Assembly: GCF_003002815.1 (NCBI RefSeq)
Contig: NZ_PVTF01000008.1
Span: forward strand, 1-64,000
Length of the DNA stretch: 64,000 nt
Direction of reading: 5' to 3'
DNA from: Umezawaea tangerina
Lineage (GTDB): Bacteria > Actinomycetota > Actinomycetes > Mycobacteriales > Pseudonocardiaceae
Positions 40,526 through 49,656 of the stretch are shown here, piece after piece. Numbering within the stretch: position 1 is the stretch's first letter; each line of letters begins with the position of its first letter. A program made the position numbers and the translations under genes. The notes beneath the pieces were generated by a model. It saw only the letters and a program-made list of their open reading frames with translations. It was not told the DNA's origin and ran no database searches.

Positions 40526-43021
40526 TTACCTGGTGATGGTTATGTCGGTGTCGTTGAGGTCGAAGTAGATGTTGCCGATGGCTTCCACGCGGATTCGGCC
40601 CTTGGTGGTTTGGAGTCTTGGCAGGGTCACGGTTGCTGTGCCGTCGTTTCGCGTTCGTGGGCTGAGGGTGTGGGGGAAGGTGAGGCCGCCGTCTGTGGAG
40701 AAGGTGATGCGGACGGCGGTGGTGTTGATGGGGGTGGTGTTGGTGCCTGCGACGGTCCAGGTGACGGTTTGGCGGGAGCCGGCTTTGTAGGTGGGGGTGG
40801 AGGTCTGTGAGGTCACCAGGAACGGGCCGGCGGTGGGGGTGATGGTCAGTGCGGTGTCGGCGCTGCCGATGCCGCCGCCGCCCTGCCTGCCGTCGCGGGC
40901 GGTGAGCTTGAAGTGCAGGGTGCGGTCCTCGGTGATGCCCACCCAGTCGGGGGTGGGGAGGAACTCGGAGTAGCAGTCGATCAGCTCGGGGCTGAGGTTG
41001 GTGCCGCCGCCGGTTTCCGGGGCGGGTGGTGGGGGTGCGGTGGGGCAGGTGCCGGTGGGGGCGTTGGTGTTGTTGGCGGCGATCTGGGCGAGGTCGGGGA
41101 AGACGCGGGTGGGGTTGGGGGTGGCGGTGTTCTCGCCGGGGGAGTAGTACGTCAGGGCGTCGGAGTCGGTGACGGTGGCGGCGGTGCCGAACTGGCGGAA
41201 CAGGGGGCCGTTCGTCTTCCTGTTGTCCACCAACGAGGTGCCGGTCTCGCCGCCGCGGTCGTTCTGCTCCCACATGTACGTCACCGGGTCGCCGTCGGGG
41301 TCGTGGGCGCGGCCGGTGAGGGCGAAGGGGGTGCGGGTGGGGATGGTGTGGTGGGCGGCGGTGGTGACGACGGGGCGGTGGTTGCGGGTGGTGGTGACGC
41401 GGTGGCCCTGGTTGTCCTCAGGGCCGCCCTGGACGGCTTCGCCGACGAGGGCGGTCGTGCCGGTCGTCTCGATGCCGAGCGGGCGGACGTCGACGCCGGC
41501 CAACGTGCCGCCGAAGGTGACCTGGAAACCGGTGTCGTCGACCTCGGACGGGCGGTTGTAGGTGTTGTTCCCGTAGCCCGCGACCTCGACCTCGGCGCCG
41601 GCGGGCAGGATCGACGTGAGCGCGGCCTTGAGCGTCTCGGGGGTGTAGCCGGGGCCGTGGGTGATCGGGGCGGACCGGTGGCCGCGGAAGGTCAGCCGGA
41701 ACGAGTCGGTGCCGTCGAAGTCGCGCAGCGAGACGTTCTGCACCTCGTCGTCGGACCACGGGGCGGCCGAGGTGAACGAGGTGATCTCGGTGAGGCTGCG
41801 GTGCGACCAGTACGGGTCGCTGTGCCGCTGCAGGTTGTCCTGCTGGCAGATCCCGGCGTAAGCCATGATCGACGACCCGCTGCCCGGCTCGTAGGAGTCC
41901 TCGGCGCTGCGCTGGCCGCTGCCGCAGTTCCACTGGTCGCCGTTGAACGGGTGGTCGGCGCCGAACTGGTGGCCGATCTCGTGCGCCACGTAGTCCACGG
42001 CGAAGAAGTCGCCCACCGGGGTGGTCAGCCCGGTGCACCCCACGGCCTTGTCCTGGCCGCCGACACCGGGTGCGGCGGCGCCACCGCCGCGGACGCCCAT
42101 GGCGATGTGCCCGACGTCGTAGTTGCCCGCGCCGACGAGCTGGCCGAGGGCGGTGATGTTGTCGACGAACGTCCCGGTGCGGCAGGACTCGAGGTCCTCC
42201 GGGAGGAAGCAGGCCGTCGCGCCGCACGGCCCGTTCGGCCTGCTCGCCTCGGCGTCGGTGTTGAGGTTGGTCTTGTCCGTGGCGTCGACGAGCAGCAGCC
42301 GGATCGCGGTCTCGTCCTCGTACACCTGCGCGACCCGGTTGACCAGTGACGCCTTGGCCGCCGTCACGTTCTCCGCGCCGAAGTAGCGCGCGTACGACGG
42401 GTCCGTGACCAGCGCCAACCGGTAGGTGCGCAGCCGCACGGCCGACCCGGTGGCGGCGGCCTCGACCTGCCTCGCCACGTGCTTGACCTCGGTCTCCCGC
42501 AGCGGTTCCGCGGCGGTGAGGTCGTGGCCGTAGTAGCTGGCGTACAGGCTCTGGTCGCCGTGGAAGTACGGGTCGACGAACCACTGGCCCCGCGGCGACC
42601 GGACGGAGGCGTGGAAGCCGAGCGGGGTGAGGTCCGCGCGGACCGTCGCCGTCGGGTCGTCCAGGCCCCTGCCCGCGTAGGTCCGGATCTCCGGGTGCCG
42701 CGCCGCGAGCCCCGGTTCCATCACGGGCGTGTCGACCAGTTCGAACCGCTCGAACCCGCCCGAGGGCGTCGGCAGCACGACCTCCGGGTCCGTCGACCCG
42801 CGCAGGGCGCCCGCCATGCCCGACCGGTCGAGGGTGAACCCGGCGAACCGGTCGGTGTGCACCTCCGCGGGCCGGTCGGACCTGGCGGCGGAGGCGGTGT
42901 CGACCCCGGTCCACGGGTTGGCCGCCGCGGCGGCCGAGCCCGTCGGCGGGATCAGCGCGCTCACGGTGGCGGCGACCGCCAACGCGGTCAGGCCACGGCG
43001 TGTCGAGGAACGTGGTGCCAC
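40526..43021 (-). CDS. Secreted reprolysin-like zinc metallopeptidase (M12B-like)
   Basis: An 831-residue exported protease. Signal peptide about 1-34 (LTALAVAATVSALIPP...AAAA), a propeptide-like N-terminal region, then a catalytic domain with HEIGHQFGADH (about residues 345-355; three His and the catalytic Glu) and a Met-turn SSIMAYAGIC about 35 residues later. Paired cysteines surround the site. The C-terminal about 300 residues are Ig/cadherin-like beta domains (PVVTTAAHHTIPTRTPFALTGRAHDPDGDPVTYMWEQ). It would digest extracellular protein. The first 400 bp of the coding 3' end are strongly skewed in codon choice (G-poor silent sites) next to repeat copy C. Confidence 0.92.
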   Translation of the reverse strand: MAPRSSTRRGLTALAVAATVSALIPPTGSAAAAANPWTGVDTASAARSDRPAEVHTDRFAGFTLDRSGMAGALRGSTDPEVVLPTPSGGFERFELVDTPVMEPGLAARHPEIRTYAGRGLDDPTATVRADLTPLGFHASVRSPRGQWFVDPYFHGDQSLYASYYGHDLTAAEPLRETEVKHVARQVEAAATGSAVRLRTYRLALVTDPSYARYFGAENVTAAKASLVNRVAQVYEDETAIRLLLVDATDKTNLNTDAEASRPNGPCGATACFLPEDLESCRTGTFVDNITALGQLVGAGNYDVGHIAMGVRGGGAAAPGVGGQDKAVGCTGLTTPVGDFFAVDYVAHEIGHQFGADHPFNGDQWNCGSGQRSAEDSYEPGSGSSIMAYAGICQQDNLQRHSDPYWSHRSLTEITSFTSAAPWSDDEVQNVSLRDFDGTDSFRLTFRGHRSAPITHGPGYTPETLKAALTSILPAGAEVEVAGYGNNTYNRPSEVDDTGFQVTFGGTLAGVDVRPLGIETTGTTALVGEAVQGGPEDNQGHRVTTTRNHRPVVTTAAHHTIPTRTPFALTGRAHDPDGDPVTYMWEQNDRGGETGTSLVDNRKTNGPLFRQFGTAATVTDSDALTYYSPGENTATPNPTRVFPDLAQIAANNTNAPTGTCPTAPPPPAPETGGGTNLSPELIDCYSEFLPTPDWVGITEDRTLHFKLTARDGRQGGGGIGSADTALTITPTAGPFLVTSQTSTPTYKAGSRQTVTWTVAGTNTTPINTTAVRITFSTDGGLTFPHTLSPRTRNDGTATVTLPRLQTTKGRIRVEAIGNIYFDLNDTDITITR

Positions 43022-44193: not shown

Positions 44194-44278
44194 CGTCCGT
44201 CCCACGGACGGGTATCGGCTGGTTTGAGGTTGTCGCACAAGGGCATCCAGGACCAACTTCGATCCACAGGAGACGGAC

Positions 44279-44485
44279 ATGGGCCTCAACGACGACGACA
44301 TCACCGGCACGAGCGGCCCGGAAGGCCCCGCTGACGGCGGTGCTGACGGCGTGCCGAACGAGCACGACGGCGGCGCCGACGGCGGCGCGAGCCCGGACGA
44401 GCACGGTCCGGCCGACGGCGGTGCCGGTGCGGTGCCCAACGAGCACGACGGCGGCGCCGACGGCGGTGCGGGCGGCGGGCGTTGA
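44279..44485 (+). CDS. Repeat-containing acidic peptide, putative substrate of the adjacent oxygenase
   Basis: A 68-residue peptide with a short N-terminal leader-like part (MGLNDDDITGTSGPE) and then two near-identical units of about 26 residues, each built as GPADGGA..., PNEHDGGADGGA. It is almost entirely Gly, Ala, Asp, Pro, with two NEHDGG and one DEHG site, and has no Cys, Ser/Thr-rich core or hydrophobic segment. AGGAG lies 7 bases before the ATG. Its stop overlaps the start of a JmjC/cupin oxygenase (TGATG), which in turn overlaps a ferredoxin-like gene. The size, low complexity, repeated core and enzyme neighbours suggest a peptide modified after translation (hydroxylation of Asp, Asn or His), but that is inference. 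No known peptide family is recognised. Confidence 0.85.
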   Translation: MGLNDDDITGTSGPEGPADGGADGVPNEHDGGADGGASPDEHGPADGGAGAVPNEHDGGADGGAGGGR

Positions 44486-45744
44486 TGACCGCTCTTCCGA
44501 CCGGGCGCAGCGCCTGCGGGTCTTCGGACCGGCAGGCGCTGCGCCGCTGCGTGGGGGTCGACCCGGAGGTGTTCGCGGCCGAGCACTGGGGTCGGACCCC
44601 GCTGTTCACCCCGGCCGCGGACCTGCCGAGGGCGTTCGACGACCTGCTCGACCTGGCCCAGGTCGACGAGCTGCTGTCCCGGCGCGGCCTGCGCACACCG
44701 TTCCTGCGGGTCGCCCGCGACGGCACCGTGCTCGGGTCGTCCCAGTTCACCCGCGGTGGCGGGGTCGGCGCGGAGATCGCCGACCAGGTCGCCGACGACC
44801 TGGTGGCGGCGCTGTTCGCGGAGGGCAGCACGCTGGTGCTCCAGGGCCTGCACCGGCTGTGGCCGCCGCTGATCGACCTCGCGGGCGAGCTGAACGCCGA
44901 CCTCGGGCACCCGGTGCAGGTCAACGCCTACATCACGCCCCCGCAGTCGCAGGGCTTCTCGGCCCACTACGACGTCCACGACGTGTTCGTCCTCCAGGTG
45001 GCCGGGCACAAGCGGTGGCGCGTCCACGCGCCCGTGCACCCCGACCCGCTGCGCGACCAGCCGTGGGCCGACCACGCCGAGGCCGTCGCCGAGCAGGCCG
45101 GTCGTGAACCGCTGATCGACCGCGTGCTGGCACCGGGCGACGCGCTCTACCTGCCGCGCGGCTACCTGCACTCGGCGGTGGCGCAGGGCGAGATCAGCGC
45201 TCACCTCACCGTGGGCGTGCACGTCGTGACCCGCCACGCGCTGGTGGAAGCGCTGTTCGCGCTGGCAGGCCGGGACGTCGACCTGCGCACGTCGCTGCCC
45301 CTCGGGATCGACCCGGCCGACCCGGAGCAGCTCGCGCCGCACGTCGCGGACGTGGTCAAGCTCCTCGCCGGTGTGCTGGCCGACGCCGATCCCGCGGATG
45401 TCGCCGAACGGGTTCGCCGCCACGTGTGGGCGGGCAACCGGCCCACGCCGGTGGCGCCGCTGGCCCAGGCGACCGCCGCGCGCGAGGCGGACGAGGGCAC
45501 CGCGGTGCGCTGGCGGCGGGGACTGCGCTTCCGGCTGGGCACGGCGGGTGAGCGGGTCGTGCTCGACCTGCCGCACGACCGCCTGACCCTGCCGGTGTCC
45601 ACGGCCGCCGCGCTGGAGCGGCTGGCGACCGGCGACGTCGTCGTGCTCGGCGACCTGCCCGGCCTGCCGGTCGACGACCAGCGGGTGCTCGTGCGCAGGC
45701 TGCTCAAAGAAGGGGTCGTGGTCCCCGCCGGACCACCGTCGTGA
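44485..45744 (+). CDS. JmjC/cupin-domain 2-oxoglutarate-dependent oxygenase (ROXA/NO66-like)
   Basis: A 419-residue cupin-fold oxygenase. The iron triad is HYD (His about 159, Asp about 161, in SAHYDVHDVFVLQVAGHKRW) and the distal His in PRGYLHSA near 227; the lysine of GHKRW fits 2-oxoglutarate binding. The C-terminal half is a winged-helix-like dimer/arm region as in ribosomal oxygenases that hydroxylate Arg or His in ribosomal proteins. It starts on the TGATG overlap with the repeat peptide and ends on a GTGA overlap with the ferredoxin-like gene. A dedicated peptide substrate is therefore a stronger guess than a ribosomal one. Confidence 0.92.
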   Translation: MTALPTGRSACGSSDRQALRRCVGVDPEVFAAEHWGRTPLFTPAADLPRAFDDLLDLAQVDELLSRRGLRTPFLRVARDGTVLGSSQFTRGGGVGAEIADQVADDLVAALFAEGSTLVLQGLHRLWPPLIDLAGELNADLGHPVQVNAYITPPQSQGFSAHYDVHDVFVLQVAGHKRWRVHAPVHPDPLRDQPWADHAEAVAEQAGREPLIDRVLAPGDALYLPRGYLHSAVAQGEISAHLTVGVHVVTRHALVEALFALAGRDVDLRTSLPLGIDPADPEQLAPHVADVVKLLAGVLADADPADVAERVRRHVWAGNRPTPVAPLAQATAAREADEGTAVRWRRGLRFRLGTAGERVVLDLPHDRLTLPVSTAAALERLATGDVVVLGDLPGLPVDDQRVLVRRLLKEGVVVPAGPPS

Positions 45745-46616
45745 ACCGCGAGCGGTGCGCGGACGGGTGCGTCCGCCGTGACGACCCGCCCACCGCGACC
45801 GCGCCGCCGGTGGGCCGCTGGGTGCTGGTGGAGCTGCCCGGCCCGTGGGGACCCGACCCGCTGCGGCTGACCTCGGAAGGGGTGGCGGTCACGCCCTTCG
45901 CGGGCGCGGTCGGTGCCAGGGTGCTGTTCATCCGGCGGCCCGGCCGCACCGTACCGGGTCGCCGCAGGCGGTGGGCGTTCGCCGACTCGACGCCGGGGAG
46001 CGAGCGGATCTCGTGGGGGGAGTTCGACGACCCCGCCGAGCTGGCCGGCATCCGGCCGGGCGACGGCGTGGCCTCGGAGCGGCCGGTGTACCTGGTGTGC
46101 ACGCACGGCAGGCACGACCTGTGCTGCGCGGTGCGCGGCCGTCCGGTCGCCGCCGCGCTGGCCGCGGCCCGGCCCGAGGACACCTGGGAGTGCTCGCACG
46201 TCGGCGGCGACCGGTTCGCCGCGAACCTCGTGGTCCTGCCGCACGGGCTCTACTACGGCAGGCTCGACGAGCGGAGTGCCGTCGAGGTCGCCGAGGCGCA
46301 CGAGCGGGGTCTGGTGCTCGGCCCGGTGGCCCGCGGCCGGTCCTCGGTGCCCGCGCCCGTGCAGGCCGCCGAGCACTTCGCCCGCGGACACCTCGGCGAG
46401 GACCGGCTGGACCGGCTCCGCCTGGTGACCGTCGAGCAGGTCGAGCGGCACCGCTGGCGGGTGCGGTTCACCGGACCGGACGCGGTGGTCGAGGTGAAGG
46501 CCGGGTTCCACCGGGCCGACAGCCCGCTCACCTGCGCCGGGTCCACTCCCGGAACCGCGAGGGAGTTCGAGCTGGTCTCGGTGTCCGGCGGCGTCGGACC
46601 CGGCGCGGGCGGGTGA
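45741..46616 (+). CDS. Sucrase/ferredoxin-like protein (thioredoxin-fold [2Fe-2S])
   Basis: A 291-residue Suc_Fer-like protein. The core is the thioredoxin-like ferredoxin pattern VCTHGRHDLCCAVRGRPVAAAL (about residues 118-139) followed by WECSHVGGDRFAANLVVLPHGLYYGRL near 152-178. The CTHG...CC and CSH groups would hold a [2Fe-2S] cluster. Despite the name the family is not a proven sucrase. Coupled by overlap to the JmjC gene, it could pass electrons that keep the oxygenase iron reduced, or act as a second modifying step. The last gene of the trio ends 72 bp before the carotenoid genes. Confidence 0.88.
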   Translation: MNRERCADGCVRRDDPPTATAPPVGRWVLVELPGPWGPDPLRLTSEGVAVTPFAGAVGARVLFIRRPGRTVPGRRRRWAFADSTPGSERISWGEFDDPAELAGIRPGDGVASERPVYLVCTHGRHDLCCAVRGRPVAAALAAARPEDTWECSHVGGDRFAANLVVLPHGLYYGRLDERSAVEVAEAHERGLVLGPVARGRSSVPAPVQAAEHFARGHLGEDRLDRLRLVTVEQVERHRWRVRFTGPDAVVEVKAGFHRADSPLTCAGSTPGTAREFELVSVSGGVGPGAGG

Positions 46617-46622
46617 GCGGCG

Positions 46623-46643
46623 GGTCCGCTTGTCATGCGGACC
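46623..46643 (+). promoter_or_regulatory. Shared crt control motif, site 1
   Basis: Inverted repeat GGTCCGC-N7-GCGGACC upstream of crtYc, with the plus-strand word GTCATGCGGACC. The same word occurs upstream of crtE. A TACGGT hexamer lies 14 bases after. It is a candidate site for a light- or redox-responsive regulator, or a -35 region for an extracytoplasmic-function sigma factor. Confidence 0.55.
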
Positions 46644-46688
46644 GCCACCACCCGACCTACGGTGGGGCTGAGCCGCGGAGGTCGGGTG

Positions 46689-47048
46689 ATGGACGGTCGT
46701 TGGGAGTACGTGCTCCTGCTGCTCGGATGTCTTGCTGTGACAGCACCCCTGGAGCTGCGGGGTGACGGTGTGTACCGGAGACCGGCCGCGCTCGCGCGGG
46801 CGATCCTCCCGGTGGTGCTGCTGTTCACCGCGTGGGACGTCGTGGCGATCGCCAGGCGGCACTGGGACTACAACCCGGCGTTCGTGACCGGGATCCGGCT
46901 GCCGGGCGCGCTGCCGGTCGAGGAGTTGCTGTTCTTCGTCGTGGTGCCGCTCTGCGCCGTGCTCACCTACGAGGCCGTGCTCGCCTTGCGGCCCAAGGGG
47001 ATCAGGCTCGACGGGGCGGTGCCGGACCTGGCCGCGCGCCGCGGCTGA
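46689..47048 (+). CDS. crtYc: Lycopene cyclase subunit (CrtYc-like)
   Basis: A 119-residue integral membrane protein with three hydrophobic segments and the cyclase signature LPVEELLFF near residues 79-87, which holds the acidic residues for acid-base ring closure. It is one half of the heterodimeric lycopene cyclase of actinobacteria; the second half is the next gene. Together they would turn lycopene into beta-carotene. The ATG at 46689 has GGAGG 7 bases before it. Stop and next start overlap (TGATG). Confidence 0.92.
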   Translation: MDGRWEYVLLLLGCLAVTAPLELRGDGVYRRPAALARAILPVVLLFTAWDVVAIARRHWDYNPAFVTGIRLPGALPVEELLFFVVVPLCAVLTYEAVLALRPKGIRLDGAVPDLAARRG

Positions 47049-47365
47049 TGGGCCGGGAGTACCTGGTGGCGGCGTTGGCGGCCGCCGTGCTGACCGTCCT
47101 CTTCGAACTCCTGGTCCTGCGCACGGGCCTGTTCCGCCGCACCGCCTACTGGGTCACGATGGCGATCGTCTTCGCGTTCCAGGTGCTGGTCGACGGGTGG
47201 CTGACCAAGCTGAGCGCGCCGGTCGTGCGCTACGCGGACTGGGCGATCAGCGGTGTGCGGGTGCCGTGGGACATCCCCGTGGAGGACTTCCTCTTCGGGT
47301 TCGCGATGGTCACGCTGACGCTGCTGCTGTGGGAGCGGGCGCGTGGGCGGAAGGCGGAGGTCTGA
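47048..47365 (+). CDS. crtYd: Lycopene cyclase subunit (CrtYd-like)
   Basis: A 105-residue membrane protein, the second cyclase subunit, with three hydrophobic segments and IPVEDFLFGF near residues 78-87, the matching acidic motif. Having both subunits as separate overlapping genes is the actinobacterial arrangement, unlike the single CrtY flavoprotein of Streptomyces coelicolor. The methyltransferase gene begins at the next base after its stop. Confidence 0.92.
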   Translation: MGREYLVAALAAAVLTVLFELLVLRTGLFRRTAYWVTMAIVFAFQVLVDGWLTKLSAPVVRYADWAISGVRVPWDIPVEDFLFGFAMVTLTLLLWERARGRKAEV

Positions 47366-48091
47366 GTGCGGTCCACGACCACGGCGGAGGTGCCCGGCGC
47401 GTTCGACGCCGCCGCGCCGGCCTACGACTTCCTGGTGGGCATGAACCCCGGCTACCACGAGGCCCTGCGCCGTTCGGCGAGCGGACTGCGGCTCTCCGGC
47501 GGCGGCAAGGGCCTGCGGCTGCTCGACCTCGGCTGCGGCACGGGCGCGTCCACGGCCGCGCTGCTCGCCGTGGCGCCGGAGGCCGAGATCGTCGGCGTGG
47601 ACGCGTCCGAGGGCATGCTGGCCCGCGCCCGCCGCAAGCACTGGCCGGACACGGTGTCCTTCGTGCACGCCAGGGCCGAGGACCTGCTCGCGGTAGGGGT
47701 GCGCGGGCCGTTCGACGGCGTGTTCGCGGCCTACCTGGTCCGCAACCTGCCCGAGCCGGACCCGGTGCTGGAGGTCGTGCGGGACCTGCTCAGGCCGGGC
47801 GCGCCGTTCGTGGTCCACGAGTACTCCGTGCGCGACTCGTTGCCGCGCACGGTGATCTGGACCGCGGTGTGCTGGGCGGTGGTCATCCCCAGCGGCGCCG
47901 TCGCCACCCGCACACCGGGCATCTTCACCTACCTGTGGCGCAGCGCGCTGGCCTTCGACGGCGCGGGCGCGCTGCGCGACCGGCTGCGCCGCACCGGGTT
48001 CACCGGCGTCCGCAGCGACACGGTGTCGGGCTGGCAGCGCGGCGTCGTGCACACCTTCGTAGCCCACGCACCCAGGGGAGAGCACGGATGA
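47366..48091 (+). CDS. crtT: Class I SAM-dependent methyltransferase (CrtT-like)
   Basis: A 241-residue methyltransferase with SAM motif LLDLGCGTGAST near residues 51-62, acidic strand GVDASEGMLARA and VFAAYLVRNLPEPD. In Streptomyces-type aromatic carotenoid clusters a gene of this kind (crtT) sits between the cyclase and crtU, as here. The precise methyl acceptor is not established. The GTG directly abuts crtYd's stop, and the 3' end overlaps crtU by 4 bases. Confidence 0.85.
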   Translation: MRSTTTAEVPGAFDAAAPAYDFLVGMNPGYHEALRRSASGLRLSGGGKGLRLLDLGCGTGASTAALLAVAPEAEIVGVDASEGMLARARRKHWPDTVSFVHARAEDLLAVGVRGPFDGVFAAYLVRNLPEPDPVLEVVRDLLRPGAPFVVHEYSVRDSLPRTVIWTAVCWAVVIPSGAVATRTPGIFTYLWRSALAFDGAGALRDRLRRTGFTGVRSDTVSGWQRGVVHTFVAHAPRGEHG

Positions 48092-49656
48092 CCGCCCGCG
48101 ACCGCAAGGCCGTCCGCACCCCCGGACCGGTGGGGCGCACCTCGTTCGAGCACGACGAACCCGTGGTCGCGGTGGTGGGCGGCGGGATCGCCGGACTGTC
48201 CGCCGCGACGATCCTGGCCGAACGCGGCGCGCGGGTCGTGCTGTGCGAGCGCGAGGACTACCTGGGCGGCCGGGTCGGCGGGTGGGCCACCGAGCTGGCC
48301 GACGGCAGCACCGCCACGATGACCCGCGGCTTCCACGCGTTCTTCCGGCAGTACTACAACCTGCGCTCGCTGCTGGCTCGCGTAGACCCGGACGGCACCG
48401 CGCTGGTCGGGCTGCCCGACTACCCGCTCTGGCACGCGGGCGGCCACCGCGAGGGCTTCGCCGGGCTGCCGCGCGCCGTGCCGTGGAACGCGGCGGCGTT
48501 CCTGCGGCGCAGCCCCACCTTCGCGTGGCGCGACCTGCCGTCGGTGAACACCCGCGCCGCGCTGCCGCTGCTCGACGTGTCGGTGCCCCGCACCTACGAC
48601 GAGCTCGACGGCCTGGACGCCGCGACCTACCTCGGGCACGTGCGCTTCCCGCGCGCGGCGCACGCGCTGGCGTTCGAGGTGTTCTCCCGCAGCTTCTTCG
48701 CCCACCCGAGCCGGATGTCCGCCGCCGAGCTGGCGACCATGTTCCACATCTACTTCCTGGGCTCGGCCGAGGGGCTGCTGTTCGACGTGGCCGCGGACCC
48801 GTTCCCGCACGCGCTGTGGAACCCGCTGGCCCGCTACCTGGACTCGCTCGGCGCCTCGGTGCGCACCGGGACCCCGGTGGAGGGCGTCGACACCGGCGGC
48901 GGGAGGCGGTTCACCGTCCGGCTGCCGGGGGAGTCGGTCGAGGCCGACGCGGTCGTGCTGGCCGCCGACGTGCACGGCCTGCGCCGGGTCGTCGACGCCT
49001 CGCCGGGACTGGGCACGTCCGGGTGGCGGGCGGGGATCTCCCGCCTGGAGACGACGCCGCCGTTCCTGGTGTCCCGCTACTGGCTCGACCGCCCGGTGCG
49101 CGCGGACCGGGCGGGGTTCCTCGGCACGACCGGGTACGACCTGCTGGACAACGTGTCCGTGCTTGACCACTACGAGCACGAGGCCCGTGCCTGGGCGGCG
49201 CGCACCGGTGGTTCCGTGGTGGAGCTGCACGGCTACGCGCTGCCGGACGACCTGGACGAGGCCTCGGCCCGCGCCCGGCTGCTGGAGCAGCTCCACGTCG
49301 TGTACCCGGAGACCAAGGCCGCCGGGATCGTGGACGAGCGGCACGAGCTGCGCGCGGACTGCCCGCTGTTCCCGCCGGGCGGGTTCGCCGACCGCCCGAC
49401 CGTCGGCACGCCCGACGACTTCCTGGTCCTGGCGGGCGATCTCGTGCGGATCGACCTGCCGGTCGCGCTGATGGAACGCGCCGCGACGACCGGTTTCGCC
49501 GCGGCCAACCACCTGCTCTCCCGGTGGGGCGTGGCCGGGACTCCACTGTGGACGGTGCCGACCTCCGGTCGCGGACCGCTGCTGCGCGCGGCGGCGCGCC
49601 GCTGGGGCCGCAACCCCGGTCAGCCGGGCAGCCGACCGGTGGCGCGCAACGCGTAG
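48088..49656 (+). CDS. crtU: Carotenoid desaturase/methyltransferase (isorenieratene synthase CrtU-like)
   Basis: A 522-residue flavoprotein of the CrtI/UDP-galactopyranose-like amine-oxidase fold: VVGGGIAGLSAATILAERGARV near residues 27-48, then CEREDYLGGRVGGW. In its family it desaturates beta-ionone rings with methyl migration, turning beta-carotene into isorenieratene. MTRGFHAFFRQYYNLRSLL and the C-terminal LVLAGDLVRIDLPVALMERA match that group rather than phytoene desaturase. The 3' end overlaps the convergent Rieske gene by 37 bp. Confidence 0.88.
   Translation: MTARDRKAVRTPGPVGRTSFEHDEPVVAVVGGGIAGLSAATILAERGARVVLCEREDYLGGRVGGWATELADGSTATMTRGFHAFFRQYYNLRSLLARVDPDGTALVGLPDYPLWHAGGHREGFAGLPRAVPWNAAAFLRRSPTFAWRDLPSVNTRAALPLLDVSVPRTYDELDGLDAATYLGHVRFPRAAHALAFEVFSRSFFAHPSRMSAAELATMFHIYFLGSAEGLLFDVAADPFPHALWNPLARYLDSLGASVRTGTPVEGVDTGGGRRFTVRLPGESVEADAVVLAADVHGLRRVVDASPGLGTSGWRAGISRLETTPPFLVSRYWLDRPVRADRAGFLGTTGYDLLDNVSVLDHYEHEARAWAARTGGSVVELHGYALPDDLDEASARARLLEQLHVVYPETKAAGIVDERHELRADCPLFPPGGFADRPTVGTPDDFLVLAGDLVRIDLPVALMERAATTGFAAANHLLSRWGVAGTPLWTVPTSGRGPLLRAAARRWGRNPGQPGSRPVARNA

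Follow-up and report, generated by a model that had tools for sequence, protein, structure and literature searches.

Ribosomal oxygenases (ROX) of the JmjC type, among them NO66, MINA53, and YcfD (RoxA), act on His or Arg residues of ribosomal proteins. Actinobacterial JmjC_2 proteins are usually filed as cupins or as histone demethylase relatives of unknown role. JmjC hydroxylases are nevertheless already known in pathways for ribosomally synthesized and post-translationally modified peptides (RiPPs), where BipG from biphenomycin-type clusters hydroxylates, on a precursor peptide, an ornithine derived from Arg within an FRF core (PMC12707348), and PbsQ is a second example (PMC12257519). Asp β-hydroxylation is likewise known in RiPPs, although from a different enzyme type: PesHI, a multinuclear non-heme iron-dependent oxidative enzyme (MNIO), hydroxylates Asp21 of its precursor (PMC13060819). 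RiPP recognition element (RRE)-like folds fused to PF08007, and bacterial JmjC homologs in RiPP-like contexts, were reported by Bregman et al. (PMC12710340). In this study, we analyzed a 64,000-nucleotide window from Umezawaea tangerina (contig NZ_PVTF01000008.1, positions 1 to 64,000) and describe a trio of overlapping genes encoding an Asp/Gly-repeat peptide, a JmjC_2 protein, and a Suc_Fer iron–sulfur protein.

The trio resembles BipG and its relatives BpmG and PbsQ in placing a JmjC/cupin-like oxygenase gene beside a precursor peptide gene. However, the biphenomycin clusters also carry B12-dependent radical S-adenosylmethionine, MNIO, and metallopeptidase genes, whereas the trio has an Asp-rich core and Suc_Fer as the sole widely shared neighbor found. 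The precedent of BipG, a JmjC protein with a RiPP precursor as its substrate, was counted in favor of a JmjC–peptide relation. The oxygenase shares with NO66, MINA53, and YcfD its fold, as judged by AlphaFold and Foldseek, together with the HxD...H motif and an aligned Asn and Lys, but its clade is distinguished by being fixed beside a short peptide gene. Asp β-hydroxylation in a precursor, as proposed below, would parallel PesHI, except that the latter is a multinuclear iron enzyme acting on one Asp, whereas the trio pairs a JmjC protein with a repeat array. Finally, Suc_Fer belongs to the PF06999 family of Apd1/Aim32-type bis-His [2Fe-2S] proteins and has the CX8C...H site, but JmjC-linked members whose motif can be read have Asp, Cys, or Glu as the fourth ligand residue. 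The open-access literature searched held no description of the trio, the peptide family, or a JmjC/Suc_Fer pair, nor did the text string "DGGADGG" occur in it, and the parts of the paper by Bregman et al. that were covered do not describe this trio.

Gene order and conservation of the trio

The three genes lie end to end at 44279–46616 on the plus strand in the order peptide, JmjC_2, and Suc_Fer (Table 1). The peptide stop codon TGA (44483–44485) and the JmjC ATG (44485) share one base, although an alternative TTG start at 44482 is possible for the JmjC gene, and the JmjC open reading frame (ORF), ending at 45744, runs four bases into the GTG of the Suc_Fer ORF (45741–46616). Three places in the 10.7-Mb U. 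tangerina genome match PF08007, the trio's being the sole strong one. The closest named locus among the matches listed is that of Umezawaea endophytica, with 82% in JmjC.

Table 1. Coordinates of predicted features of the trio in the 64,000-nucleotide window
Feature	Position	Strand	Basis
GGGTAT, −10-like element of possible SigB-type promoter, 69 bp upstream of peptide start	44210..44215	+	motif; matching −35 absent
AGGAG, putative ribosome-binding site of peptide gene	44268..44272	+	sequence
Putative precursor peptide, 68 aa	44279..44485	+	ORF; leader-like MGLNDDDITG, then Asp/Gly repeats with six DGGA units
JmjC_2 (ROX/NO66-like) putative Fe(II)/2-oxoglutarate oxygenase, 419 aa from ATG	44485..45744	+	PF08007, E = 1.8e-28
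Predicted metal-binding H161 and D163 (44965-44973) and H229 (45169-45171) of JmjC	44965..45171	+	invariant in 38 homologs
C-terminal part of JmjC, residues ~340-414, strands then helices; putative winged-helix/RRE-like domain	45502..45726	+	AlphaFold secondary structure; NO66 match
Suc_Fer-like protein, thioredoxin-like [2Fe-2S] ferredoxin domain	45741..46616	+	PF06999, E = 5.3e-17
Predicted cluster site CX8C...HX3D of Suc_Fer: C120 (46098-46100), C129 (46125-46127), H153 (46197-46199), D157 (46209-46211)	46098..46211	+	alignment, motif counts

We assembled 110 loci, comprising the window, 29 loci from a draw of 150 genomes of the family (70 of which gave some JmjC match), and, from named genomes, the 80 top-scoring of 404 confirmed places. 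Kin within genera are not independent. An upstream ORF carrying at least three DG[GASN][AGSVY] motifs was present in 100 of the 110 loci, compared with 10 of the 6,490 other ORFs there that passed the same test. This enrichment, together with the overlapping ORFs and their Pfam matches, bears out the coupled trio proposed in the initial annotation, which had also named JmjC homologs mostly lacking the small gene as the outcome that would speak against it. The opposite was observed. Six of the 10 loci that failed are near contig ends (15–167 bp upstream) and four are distant homologs (37–43% identity), three of which have a different Asp-rich peptide (class B, below); no upstream peptide was seen at the distant homolog L027. 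For close JmjC loci (~52% identity or more) with upstream DNA, the peptide was found upstream in 100/100 (88 non-redundant), and the pair is usually accompanied by Suc_Fer.

The tight overlap of the peptide and JmjC genes is not general across homologs. Elsewhere, the peptide stop codon ranges from slightly inside the JmjC match to >100 bp upstream, and the gap is 462 bp in L051. When flanking ORFs of at least 100 aa were clustered (flanks of 4 kb in L031–L110 and ~1.5 kb in L002–L030), Suc_Fer formed the widest cluster, linking 48 loci to a single hub, compared with 22 loci for the second widest, and no conserved neighbor of comparable width beyond the trio emerged among these ORFs in the 110-locus set. 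Hosts include Pseudonocardiaceae, Kribbella, Geodermatophilaceae, Kineosporia, and Microbacteriaceae, along with further families and orders of the class; the cassette occurs in many actinobacteria.

Peptide classes and the two partner proteins

The window peptide contains 11 Asp residues, six of them within DGGA units, a single Lys/Arg in total, and 32% Gly, and it has no match in Pfam or NCBIfam; peptides of the classes scanned likewise gave no family above the cut-off in either collection. Removal of 12 duplicates from the 100 upstream peptides left 88 non-redundant members of what we call class A, whose leaders and starts were chosen by pattern (by fallback in 4/88). These range from 58 to 244 aa, with a median of 97. 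By eye, most begin with M-(A/S/G)-L-(D/N/E)-DDD-(I/M)-(T/R) and have a GGAG-type ribosome site ahead of the chosen start. Their cores average 41% Gly, 19% Ala, and 15% Asp, and the Asp residues fall mostly in D-x-x-A units (DGGA 1008, DSGA 136, DGSA 55, and DHGA 30 occurrences). Repeat number and core length vary, with 6–25 D-x-x-A-like units per core, such that class A peptides combine a kept leader (as judged by eye) with a variable, repeated core, as is typical of RiPPs. Between the window and L002, from the same genus, the peptide gene differs by 11 synonymous and six non-synonymous codons, and the differences by codon position (4, 4, and 11) are mostly at the third.

Cys is absent from 88/88 cores, Lys from 77, Asn from 59, and His from 13. 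The initial annotation had pointed to Asn-Glu-His-Asp as the site of modification. This part was not supported: many cores lack Asn or His, but none has fewer than six D-x-x-A-like units, and core composition speaks against Asn and His as general targets. What stood of that interpretation is the conserved pair and the NO66-type enzyme.

More distant JmjC enzymes are preceded by other peptides. Class B has 'RPLRDDDMQTVGGGG...DADSDATDADAD'; class C1 comprises peptides of 41–44 aa with '...VDRGKANGA' and a DND- or DTD-type end; class C2 is exemplified by '...SDGGGTGRSDTND', class C3 by 'MDPIEVEVEDLAEVTSRDITAGGDNDGTDSSSDFI', and class C4, a label that lumps several unlike cores, by '...HSDSDGSDG'; the class D peptide carries 'VIADNDPSDPVL' twice. 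Among loci L144–L203, an Asp-rich peptide was accepted by eye in 57/60, the one at L144 being the weakest, and at least four of these 60 repeat earlier loci, the window included; L164 is cut by a contig end. A peptide was seen by eye in 12 of the 17 JmjC loci L114–L130. Thus, a short precursor-like gene is conserved beside the candidate modifying enzyme in both close and distant loci. Inspected by eye, the cores of all classes have Asp in common, usually with a small residue after it, and no residue other than Asp is shared.

Peptide type follows the enzyme tree. For 71 rows hand-chosen from the loci collected, eight peptide labels require nine changes, where the minimum is seven and shuffled labels average 45 (0/200 as low). 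All of class A falls into a single group (support 94/89), classes B and C2 take two changes each, and "no peptide" takes four. Two of the 71 labels (L114 and L174) were given before peptide inspection; L114 later proved to fit and L174 to differ. The L174 JmjC gene, whose enzyme groups with class D, is preceded by an ORF of 91 aa that ends in a 'GWDWDGTDGYFVTDPDPTD' stretch and has a long leader unlike the others; it may represent an additional type of precursor. Separately, a prolyl oligopeptidase-family (Peptidase_S9) ORF adjoins the class C3 peptide of L157 on its upstream side (a fragment was scanned, at this one C3 locus), and Peptidase_S9-like ORFs, candidate processing proteases, are visible in several sister loci.

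By sequence, the window JmjC protein is closest among solved structures to NO66 and MINA53, followed by a YcfD-like protein and YcfD. Its AlphaFold model (mean predicted local distance difference test score, pLDDT, 92.2; predicted template modeling score 0.88) matches NO66 in Foldseek with E = 6.9e-27, a template modeling score of 0.69 by query length, and a root mean square deviation of 6.1 over 468 alignment columns at 24% identity; the titles of matched structures name histidine and arginyl hydroxylases. H161, D163, H229, N147, and K176 are invariant in 38 aligned homologs and align with NO66, in which the counterparts of N147 and K176 are identical. By analogy with NO66, the HxD...H triad, N147, and K176 are predicted to serve in metal and 2-oxoglutarate binding. 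The model and the NO66 match also display the ROX-type architecture, in which helical and winged-helix domains come after the JmjC barrel; the winged-helix assignment is based on the secondary structure of the model and on the whole-protein match. The assignment as a JmjC-type 2-oxoglutarate oxygenase, made initially from the sequence, is therefore upheld, with the triad intact.

The Suc_Fer model (pLDDT 92.9) finds its best Protein Data Bank fold matches in thioredoxin-like [2Fe-2S] ferredoxins (E = 3.8e-3, probability 1.00), none falling below E = 0.001. Bis-His proteins of this kind carry the motif CX8CXnHX3H (PMC8482512), and Apd1 has a 2Cys2His cluster pocket (PMC11126956). The window protein has CX8C and the first His, but the second is replaced, D157 standing at its canonical position. 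The last His is Asp or Cys in 118/118 readable JmjC-linked loci (class A, 81 Asp and 20 Cys; class B, 11 Asp; class C1, 4 Asp; class C4, 2 Asp), and a further 13 class A loci have no readable cluster motif. In a set drawn through Pfam without regard to JmjC (41 of 42 loci examined, L235 being left out), all 19 JmjC-linked members have Asp (18) or Glu (1), compared with 17 His, four Asp, and one unreadable motif among the 22 unlinked members. Because Asp, Cys, or Glu occurs in linked members and Asp also in four unlinked ones, the ligand change marks a JmjC-associated but non-exclusive subfamily. The HX3D proteins without JmjC in their locus are L214 (near a contig start), L215, L218, and L228, and that of L215 adjoins a FecCD permease.

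Of the 88 regions preceding the peptide gene, 32 contain G[CT][AG]T[GA]-N15-GGGTA, a motif missing from all distant control regions, and the same two elements at other spacings from 8 to 25 occur in 0–2 regions each. Note that the regions in which this motif was discovered also supplied its count (post hoc), the fixed 15-base spacing serving as an internal control. GGGTA alone is present in 44/88 regions; on their reverse strand it is found in 19, and the distant regions give 2 and 5 of 87. Geodermatophilaceae loci carry, by eye, the variant GTGTR-N15-(A/C)GGTA. One group of SigB-type stress promoters in Streptomyces has a GNNT −35 element, and SCO0566p reads GCATAA-N14-GGGTAT (PMC8346170). 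The canonical GTTT −35 element was not seen ahead of GGGTA; GNNT fits instead. Part of the class A family thus looks stress-controlled. The window has no matching −35 element, and for this reason its assignment is weak, with stress control being proposed for part of the family and not for the window locus. LexA-box-like sites with two or three mismatches were found in four of the 88 upstream regions.

Proposed function and competing explanations

The best explanation of these sequence patterns is a large RiPP family, each member with a JmjC enzyme and an Asp-rich peptide. We consider it likely, if short of assured, that the trio is a ribosomal peptide modification system in which JmjC hydroxylates Asp within D-x-x-A units. 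The acidic N-terminal leader (typically M-x-L-D-D-D-D-I/M-T) would be bound by JmjC, probably via its C-terminal winged-helix domain, and the enzyme, with Fe(II), O2, and 2-oxoglutarate, would then hydroxylate Asp throughout the repeats, so that the product would contain numerous β-hydroxyaspartates. Asp is named as the target mainly because it is what the cores share across peptide classes. The initial annotation had cast Suc_Fer as the enzyme's possible electron donor. Enzymes of this kind draw electrons from 2-oxoglutarate; Suc_Fer would most likely hold iron in its reduced state, be it the iron of the oxygenase through successive turnovers or that bound to the product. A many-fold hydroxylated Asp-Gly polymer could be expected to be a strong hard-metal ligand and water binder.

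Several observations weigh against this proposal. We know of no ROX enzyme that acts on Asp rather than on His or Arg, and the Gly, Ala, or Ser residues of the repeats could be the target instead. By eye, no clear peptide lies upstream of JmjC in L148 and L167, nor in five of the loci L114–L130 (L115, L119, L123, L124, and L129). The partner protein is not universal: among the 89 non-redundant loci that extend 900 bp or more downstream, Suc_Fer is present in 85 (a count of presence within the locus, the gene order having been seen for plus-strand loci), being missing from L031, L059, L068, and L073; in a class-wide sample with flanks of ~1.5 kb it accompanies 19 of 25 class A loci (not L181, L182, L186, L191, L192, or L199) and only 2/30 of loci L144–L173. 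A DGGADG-type pattern occurs in 68 of the 150 family genomes drawn, many of them single matches far from a strong JmjC, and the pattern alone therefore proves nothing. Lastly, no conserved protease, transporter/exporter, or immunity genes of RiPP type were found round class A. No signal peptide was evident by eye at class A N-termini, which have the acidic leader instead (no signal-peptide program was run), and these two absences together suggest that the product probably stays in the cell.

Related sequences occur in other settings. In two genomes of one other genus (g4), DGGADDGG/DGGADGG tandem arrays (L111:3576–4352 and L112:3289–4041) make up a stalk at the C-terminus of a longer protein whose N-terminus is signal-like, and in L113 a DGGADGG-type array lies within a long minus-strand ORF; none of the three loci contains JmjC. 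At L115 and L129, a nitroreductase-family ORF (PF00881, scanned for L129) stands directly upstream of JmjC.

Among the alternatives, the one that survives best is compatible with Asp hydroxylation: Suc_Fer may be a ferric reductase for peptide-bound iron and the trio an intracellular iron store or buffer. A ferric reductase role is suggested by the FecCD permease beside the unlinked Asp-ligand Suc_Fer of L215, and β-hydroxyaspartate is an Fe(III) ligand in siderophores. Also counted in its favor is the transcription of Streptomyces coelicolor dpsA from a SigB-like promoter (PMC3184153). However, a search ahead of the 88 peptide genes for IdeR, Fur, and Zur boxes yielded nothing better than resampled sequence, and many JmjC loci have no Suc_Fer nearby, so that we hold an iron store to be possible but rather unlikely. 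A fuller version, to which we attach little credence, is a stress-induced intracellular poly-β-hydroxyaspartyl protein acting as a repeat-tunable hard-metal (iron/calcium) buffer on a disordered Asp-Gly scaffold and unloaded by the HX3D [2Fe-2S] reductase.

Different chemistry on the same peptide is also unlikely. JmjC might modify Gly, Ala, Ser, or His, or make a cross-link or other oxidation, with Suc_Fer serving a second redox step. His stands beside Asp in many peptides (DHGA and HDGG), and a distinct Asp/Cys/Glu-ligand Suc_Fer subtype accompanies JmjC, but the cores without His and the standing of Asp as the sole residue common to all peptide classes argue for Asp hydroxylation.

More improbable still is that the peptide is a hydrophilin-like stress protectant, merely co-regulated with a JmjC enzyme that acts mainly elsewhere, for example on a ribosomal protein. 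Hydrophilins are defined by Gly above ~6% and strong hydrophilicity; Gly makes up 32% of the window peptide and 41% of the cores. The cores also have no Cys, the SigB-type promoter motif occurs in part of the family, and ROX enzymes hydroxylate ribosomal proteins, as structure titles indicate. In contrast, peptides of 35–45 aa, as found in other classes, would probably be too small to protect in bulk, and the constant pairing with JmjC, together with the replacement of the peptide by unlike Asp-rich ones beside distant JmjC clades, points to a substrate relation. That the small ORF is an untranslated, low-complexity artefact of repetitive, Gly-rich, GC-rich DNA, as the missing family match and the common single DGGADG-type matches in family genomes might suggest, is scarcely credible given the leader, ribosome site-like sequence, and frame kept in 88 homologs, the excess of third-position differences to L002, and the rarity of control ORFs passing the motif test.

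Neighboring genes and wider meaning

Directly 3′ of the trio, at 46635–49656 of the window, is a gene run that opens with a lycopene cyclase-like protein (PF18916) and continues, by eye, with methyltransferase-like and desaturase-like ORFs, probably a carotenoid cluster. On the minus strand, at 40526–43021, is a large reprolysin-type metallopeptidase ORF (PF13574, E = 1.1e-26).

With the trio, a large group of actinobacterial JmjC_2 proteins gains an adjacent, testable substrate candidate and a predicted target residue. Should Asp hydroxylation of the repeat peptide be borne out, the gain would be an Asp hydroxylase of the JmjC type, a peptide family of wide occurrence (seven core types as sorted), and an altered [2Fe-2S] ligand set. 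The winged helix of NO66-type enzymes may, in bacteria, serve as a reader of peptide leaders.

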